Shown one piece after another: positions 24,423 to 39,386 of a stretch of DNA of 64,000 nt. This DNA comes from Nitrospirota bacterium. GTDB lineage: Bacteria; Nitrospirota; Leptospirillia; Leptospirillales; Leptospirillaceae. The notes under the pieces were generated by a model that worked only from the letters and a program-made list of their open reading frames with translations, searched no databases and was not told the DNA's origin. The stretch is taken from positions 62,001-126,000 of the forward strand of contig JAMCWM010000026.1 in assembly GCA_023481175.1 (NCBI GenBank). The letters are read 5' to 3'. Numbering within the stretch: position 1 is the first letter of the stretch; every line of letters begins with the position of its first letter. Both the position numbers and the translations under genes were made by a program.

Positions 24423-25082
24423 TCACCCCGAGATGACCGGTTTCGGCGGAATATGGGGCCTGAGGCGGTCGAGAAGATCCATGACCGCCCTGTTCTTGAG
24501 GGACCAGGAGGCCCGGTTGACGATGAGACGTGCGGTCGAGGGAAGGATCTCCTCGACGATTTCAAGATCGTTTTCCCGAAGGGTCCGTCCCGTGGCCACC
24601 AGGTCTACGATCTGGTCCGCCAGACCTGTCTGGGGGGCGAGCTCGAGAGAGCCGTAAAGTTTCAGGATCGAGACGGGGATCCCTCGTGCCAGAAAGTGCA
24701 TTTCGGCCAGCCGCGGATATTTGGTGGCAATCCGGAGGGTGCGCCTTCCCGGGTCTTCCCGGGCGGGTCCCCCCGGACGCGCCACCACCAGCCGGCAGAA
24801 TCCGACGTTCAGGTCGAGGGGTTCGATCATCTCCCGGTTCTGCTCCTCGATCTGGTCCCGGCCGACAATTCCCATGTCGGCTCCGCCATATTCGACATAG
24901 GCGATGACATCGCTCGATCGGACGAGGAGGAGACGGAGGGAGCCATCGTCGGAGCGGCAGGAGAGGGCCCGGGGATTTTTCAGATATTCCGAGAATCCCC
25001 ATCCTCCCTTCTCGAAAAGGGTCAAAAGATCATCGAACATCTTGCCTTTGGGAAGGGCGAGAACGAGGGAGGGGGAGTCTAT
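24423..25082 (-). CDS. hisG: ATP phosphoribosyltransferase, short form, with apparent ATA start codon
   Basis: HisG catalyses the first committed step of histidine synthesis. The open frame reads SPSLVLALPKGKMFDDLL at its N-terminus, the conserved HisG beginning (LALPKGR), followed by ADMGIVGRDQIEE and DQIVDLVATGRTLRENDL. Only the part from ATG 25040 has a canonical start, and that form would lose the ALPKGK strand. Upstream in frame there is no ATG, GTG or TTG; instead a perfect AGGAGG (25090-25095) lies 7 nt before ATA 25082-25080, which overlaps the murA stop as ATAG. I therefore annotate an ATA start, giving 219 residues. The short form lacks the C-terminal regulatory domain and normally needs HisZ, which is not in this window. 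Confidence 0.88.
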   Translation of the reverse strand: MDSPSLVLALPKGKMFDDLLTLFEKGGWGFSEYLKNPRALSCRSDDGSLRLLLVRSSDVIAYVEYGGADMGIVGRDQIEEQNREMIEPLDLNVGFCRLVVARPGGPAREDPGRRTLRIATKYPRLAEMHFLARGIPVSILKLYGSLELAPQTGLADQIVDLVATGRTLRENDLEIVEEILPSTARLIVNRASWSLKNRAVMDLLDRLRPHIPPKPVISG

Positions 25083-38808: not shown

Positions 38809-39312
38809 TCAATGTTCACATGTCGCCCTTTTCTGCTTTCGCTCCTCCCCCCATTGGAGGAAGAGCAGAAGACCGACCCCCACCACGATCCCGGAGTCGG
38901 CGATATTGAAGGTGTACCAATGATAGCCCCGGATATAGAAATCGAGAAAGTCGATGACGCGTCCGTGGAGAACCCTGTCCAGCAGGTTGCCTGTCGCCCC
39001 ACCGAGGATGAGGGCCAGGGGATAGAACTCGGGTGAGTTTGTCGCCTTCTTTTTATTGCTGTAGTAAAGGATCGCGACCATGGCCAGCAATGTAAAAAGA
39101 ATGAAGACTCCCTGACGGGAGACGTGATCTCCCTGGGAAAAGAGACCGAACACGATTCCTGTGTTCCGGACGGAGACGATTCTGAAAAAATGTGGAATGA
39201 CCTCAGATTCTGTTCCTAGCGGAAGCTTCGAAAGGACAAGATATTTGGTCGCTTGATCGAGGGCAAAGAGACCCGCTCCGGCGAACCCGTAAAGAAGCCA
39301 CGAATTTTTGAT
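38809..39312 (-). CDS. lspA: Lipoprotein signal peptidase (signal peptidase II), with apparent ATC start codon
   Basis: LspA removes signal peptides from prolipoproteins. The open frame gives four membrane segments and family motifs: KNSWLLYGFAGAGLF, LDQATKYLVL, VSVRNTGIVFG, LALILGGATGNLLDRVLHGRVIDFLDF with catalytic Asp, and YTFNIADSGIVVG with the second Asp. The first canonical start in frame is GTG 39153, which would lose the first membrane segment and both N-terminal motifs. Further upstream no ATG, GTG or TTG exists in this frame. The sequence ATC (39312-39310) aligns with the family start (M-K-N-S-W-L-L), preceded by AAGGGG with a 7-nt spacer. I annotate the ATC start (167 residues). 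Confidence 0.88.
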   Translation of the reverse strand: MKNSWLLYGFAGAGLFALDQATKYLVLSKLPLGTESEVIPHFFRIVSVRNTGIVFGLFSQGDHVSRQGVFILFTLLAMVAILYYSNKKKATNSPEFYPLALILGGATGNLLDRVLHGRVIDFLDFYIRGYHWYTFNIADSGIVVGVGLLLFLQWGEERKQKRATCEH

Positions 39313-39375
39313 GAGCCATCCCCTTTTAAATGAATCAAGGTGTCTTGAGAGGCACTCCGGCCATCTTGTCAGAAC

Positions 39376-39386
39376 ATTATATCATA
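39376..39386 (-). promoter_or_regulatory. Extended -10 promoter of lspA
   Basis: On the minus strand TATGATATAAT provides TG-A-TATAAT, a perfect extended -10 with no clear -35. The start point would be near 39369, giving a leader of about 57 nt before the proposed ATC. It sits in the gap after the ileS stop, so lspA can be transcribed separately from ileS. The same TATGNTATAAT form is found at hflX. Confidence 0.6.

Follow-up and report, generated by a model that had tools for sequence, protein, structure and literature searches.

Probable AUC start codon of lspA conserved across one genus of Leptospirillaceae, with further rare AUU, AUC and AUA starts in the lineage

The essential gene lspA, encoding signal peptidase II, sits directly downstream of ileS on the minus strand of the window (i.e., the whole 64,000-nucleotide stretch of DNA that was analysed, which is part of contig C47 of a 2.32 Mb draft genome). 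It appears to begin at AUC and, with hisG, is one of two genes in the window with a predicted AUU, AUC or AUA start (hereafter AUH start). The following features were annotated:
38809..39312, minus strand: lspA (signal peptidase II), 167 codons from ATC, stop codon at 38811-38809; identified through TIGR00077, PF01252 and orthologues
39310..39312, minus strand: predicted AUC start codon of lspA
39320..39325, minus strand: Shine-Dalgarno sequence AAGGGG of lspA, with a 7-nt spacer to the AUC
39317..39319, minus strand: out-of-frame ATG directly adjoining the Shine-Dalgarno sequence; not the lspA start
39382..39384, minus strand: in-frame TGA closing the lspA frame upstream
39376..39384, minus strand: probable extended -10 promoter of lspA, TGATATAAT, in the ileS-lspA gap
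24423..25082, minus strand: hisG (ATP phosphoribosyltransferase), predicted AUA start at 25082-25080

An earlier note, made from the letters of this DNA, had described lspA as a frame without a canonical start before GTG 39153, and we re-found its frame, motifs and coordinates as described; no ATG, GTG or TTG is present in the lspA frame between the TGA at 39384-39382 and GTG 39153. Read from ATC, residues 4-162 of LspA match positions 8-163/164 of TIGR00077 with 125 bits (cut-off 74), which represents a near-complete match to this equivalog profile, and the protein also matches PF01252 with 139 bits. Read from GTG 39153, the TIGR00077 match begins only at profile position 61 and drops to 86 bits, as this start would cost the protein its first membrane helix and the LDQATKYLV motif, a loss that the earlier note had foreseen. 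The coding score in the window is -3.1 (non-coding) for the 60 nt before ATC versus +7.8 for the next 53 codons, and the N-terminus predicted from AUC is MKNSWLL. The AAGGGG sequence 7 nt before ATC, also pointed out in that note, is predicted to form a duplex of -8.7 kcal/mol with the anti-Shine-Dalgarno sequence, a value that assumes the standard tail, as no 16S rRNA gene was found in the draft. A candidate extended -10 element (TGATATAAT) in the ileS-lspA gap suggests that lspA is probably transcribed from a promoter of its own, giving a leader of some 55-60 nt; a TGNTANAAT-type sequence is found near the same place in most relatives. The predicted structure of this leader RNA was no more stable than that of shuffled sequences.

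Comparison of the lspA start across related genomes had been proposed in the earlier note. We searched 41 related genomes and found lspA in 38; these include 14 genomes of the same genus (counting the draft itself), 13 of which contain the lspA N-terminus, while G004 was left out of the start count because only the C-terminal part of lspA matched, at a contig end. The codon aligned with the lspA start is ATC in 13/13 same-genus genomes (13 species) while its surroundings vary, in agreement with the start at 39312-39310 that the note had favored. Each of these 13 genes carries a Shine-Dalgarno-like sequence at start spacing before ATC (of the AAGGGG, AAGGG or AAGGAG type; in L009 and L010, AAGGAG is located 6 nt before ATC), the orthologues in the 12 relatives are 167-168 codons long, and no canonical start codon at the coding onset is common to the genus relatives. 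Among LspA columns with one residue in 13/13 (Met and Trp excluded), a single codon is kept in only 6/68, and in each of the five other invariant Ile columns, ATC occurs alongside ATT or ATA. Within codons 2-11, the first, second and third positions vary in 7, 8 and 9 of the 10 codons, respectively, whereas the start triplet varies at no position among the 13 genus members; in the pairs that were calculated, between a third and about two thirds of the four-fold sites are different. Because the surrounding codons vary while the ATC column is invariant, conservation as an internal Ile codon seems a poor explanation, and conservation as a start codon fits. Two loci from another family of the phylum (L020 and L021) have ATG aligned with the lspA ATC, and their MKN context matches IKN here, suggesting ATG to ATC as the probable direction of change; in sister genera (L014, L016–L019), lspA mostly has an ATG further upstream and a longer N-terminus. 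From these alignments, AUC is almost certainly the lspA start, and this start is very probably real and conserved.

AUU, AUC and AUA are known start codons that are discriminated by IF3 (PMC4611024), which acts against the class of starts with a third-position mismatch (PMC4611024, PMC10158994). In the mechanism that we propose for lspA, AAGGGG would position the AUC at 39312-39310, which would be read by the ordinary fMet-tRNA(CAU); the C-C mismatch at the third codon position would make this a weak start subject to IF3 discrimination. LspA synthesis would then be kept low or would follow IF3 activity, as for the AUU of infC, a proposal modeled on infC, cvfC1 and ccpN. The same weak-start device would also be used by infC, hisG and three further genes, encoding a YggT-family protein, an MlaE-like permease and an MGDG-synthase-like protein. 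We hold the AUC start together with its reading as a weak start with high confidence; a physiological response of lspA to the level of IF3 is put forward only tentatively. The draft (89% complete, with some tRNAs absent) contains an initiator-type tRNA with a CAT anticodon and a GGG/CCC anticodon stem; neither a second initiator nor an initiator tRNA with a GAT anticodon was found in it. IF3 presents few lineage-specific changes, at positions 20, 67, 74 and 103 as numbered on what we take to be the E. coli IF3 sequence, and none of these has an obvious meaning.

Selection for a weak start, which would keep the lspA AUC from reverting to AUG, is likely the reason for its retention. A different reading accepts AUC as the start and ascribes its persistence to lineage inertia, i.e., to a fixed change that is tolerated by the Shine-Dalgarno context and has no regulatory role, which would be consistent with AUH usage being limited to a handful of genes. 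However, AUC is one substitution away from AUG and yet 0/13 species have reverted, although as many as about two thirds of the four-fold sites are different between pairs; the YggT gene swaps ATC and ATT across the genus and has ATG at its start column in no genus member; and in published counts, changes from non-AUG starts to AUG outnumber those in the opposite direction (PMC5622118). We thus regard inertia as unlikely, and the conserved rare starts suggest a selected, weak start signal.

Readings that place the lspA start elsewhere fare considerably worse. An in-frame start further upstream is very improbable; while the frame in the window is open up to the TGA and includes a CTG (39372-39370), and an upstream in-frame TTG exists in L002, L003, L004, L006 and L007, none of these candidates is common to the relatives, the coding score in the window is negative for the 60 nt preceding ATC, and in-frame stops exclude an upstream start in L008 (a TAG immediately 5′ of ATC) and in L005, L009 and L010 (within a few codons of ATC). 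Even less credible is a start at the out-of-frame ATG (39319-39317), joined to lspA by a programmed +1 frameshift or through an assembly error, which the earlier note had weighed as a competing explanation. This ATG is found 7 nt upstream of ATC in L001–L006, followed by an A-rich stretch, but is missing in L007 (which has ATTG) and in L008–L013, all of which keep both ATC and the Shine-Dalgarno sequence; a conserved programmed frameshift was therefore rejected. The ATG also abuts the Shine-Dalgarno sequence and is thus too close to serve, no relative has an indel that would place an ATG in the lspA frame, and an isolated base error is excluded by the recurrence of the ATC pattern across many separate assemblies. 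Least probable of all, to a degree that allows dismissal, is a decaying or truncated lspA read from GTG 39153; this is the first canonical start in the frame, but it removes the first helix and conserved motifs, the 53 codons 5′ of it are conserved in 12 relatives, and the search matched lspA once in each genus genome and found no further copy.

The second predicted AUH start in the window is that of hisG, which is preceded by AGGAGG with a 7-nt spacer. The earlier note had remarked on this spacer as equal to that of lspA, and we found that hisG itself begins at ATA, with MDSPSLVLALPK as the predicted N-terminus; the start is ATA in 13/13 genus members. The hisG ATA overlaps the stop codon of an upstream frame that is presumably murA-like, judging from its C-terminal sequence, forming ATAG in the window and ATAA in relatives. 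An ATGA overlap of start and stop is a common arrangement, and the overlap found here resembles ATGA with TGA changed to TAG or TAA; the overlapping stop, rather than selection on the start codon, may thus partly hold the hisG ATA in place. Gene callers restricted to ATG, GTG and TTG would shorten HisG by 14 residues and LspA by 53.

To assess other genes, about 2165 gene-like frames of the draft were scored with a dicodon model. At Shine-Dalgarno sites close to coding onsets across the draft genome, ATT, ATC and CTG showed no enrichment, whereas ATG, GTG and TTG did; genome-wide relaxed initiation was rejected on this basis. ATA was found at four Shine-Dalgarno sites versus about one expected, too few to judge. 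A strict screen of the draft returned 21 sites; to pass, a site needed a strong Shine-Dalgarno sequence, no canonical start in frame upstream of it, and coding signal ahead of the next canonical start. Genes in which a canonical codon happens to lie close to the AUH codon escape this screen. In addition to lspA and infC, we compared four protein-like candidates (hisG and the three genes for the YggT-family protein, the permease and the glycosyltransferase described below) in relatives; these were chosen for looking good and so do not give an unbiased rate. As the codons are not enriched genome-wide, the set is small and each case depends on its own comparison. Three other sites (C39:16579, C21:69951 and C29:17688) were set aside as AUH candidates because a good NTG is found nearby.

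The infC start, which served as a positive control, is ATT in 14/14 genus genomes. The gene encoding a YggT-family protein (G000:C15:23628, L320; compared with L321–L331 and L360–L364) starts with ATC in 8/13 and ATT in 5/13 genus members; four genomes of sister genera (L361–L364) have ATT at this position, and L365–L367 have an ATG one codon later. For the MlaE-family permease gene (G000:C3:2969, L349), the codon is ATC at all 11 loci that could be aligned (11/11), and in several of these the Shine-Dalgarno sequence is weak. The gene for the MGDG-synthase-like glycosyltransferase (G000:C2:1117, L340) has ATC in 7/9, with ATG in L346 and CTC plus a nearby ATG in L342. Thus, at least five further genes of the lineage show rare predicted AUU, AUC or AUA starts, and lspA, which the earlier note had seen alone, is by these alignments one of a small AUH-start gene set.

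The AUU start of infC, through which IF3 autoregulates its own synthesis, is the textbook case of this type of codon, and, to our knowledge, reports of conserved AUH starts in bacteria concern only a handful of genes beyond infC. Like infC, where AUU or AUA is used, lspA has a clade-conserved AUH start after a Shine-Dalgarno sequence; however, lspA encodes a membrane protease and not IF3, and is thus without the closed autoregulatory loop. Compared with ordinary signal peptidase II genes (TIGR00077/PF01252), lspA in this lineage encodes the same protein at normal length and is likewise downstream of ileS, but has AUC across the genus where L020 and L021 have ATG in the same column. Yield is reduced by conserved AUU and AUA starts in S. 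aureus; the AUU of cvfC1 and the AUA of ccpN are conserved in Staphylococcus, and the latter also in Bacillus (PMC13009471). These two genes resemble lspA in that a rare AUH start is kept among relatives together with a Shine-Dalgarno sequence, and they have been read as cases of throttled translation; their starts are backed by ribosome profiling and reporters (PMC13009471), whereas the lspA AUC is known from sequence alone, and at least six genes carry the trait in the lspA lineage. Our literature search found no paper on an lspA AUC start or on the AUH set of this lineage, which is weak evidence, as most subscription papers lay outside the search.

A lipoprotein-maturation gene, lspA, thus appears to hold AUC across a whole genus, and lspA and at least five other lineage genes represent a natural set for asking whether IF3 discrimination gives coordinated control. 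We consider it somewhat unlikely that the AUU, AUC and AUA starts amount to a shared translational control in the lineage, with at least six genes tied to the status of IF3 or of the initiator tRNA; if true, the set under such control would span IF3, lipoprotein processing, envelope-lipid functions and the histidine entry enzyme.

Two further observations concern the draft itself. The N-terminal protein segments encoded on contigs C2 and C3 (L340 and L349) are 100% identical to those of G003, though LspA of the draft differs from that of G003 by about 19%, suggesting that these two contigs may be contamination (the stated contamination of the draft is 6%). Another frame, on the minus strand of G000:C35 around 66478-66500, is broken by a TGA near its N-terminus and probably represents prfB, which encodes release factor 2; a programmed frameshift is well known for prfB, such that a TGA break near the N-terminus is expected, and this frame was set aside.
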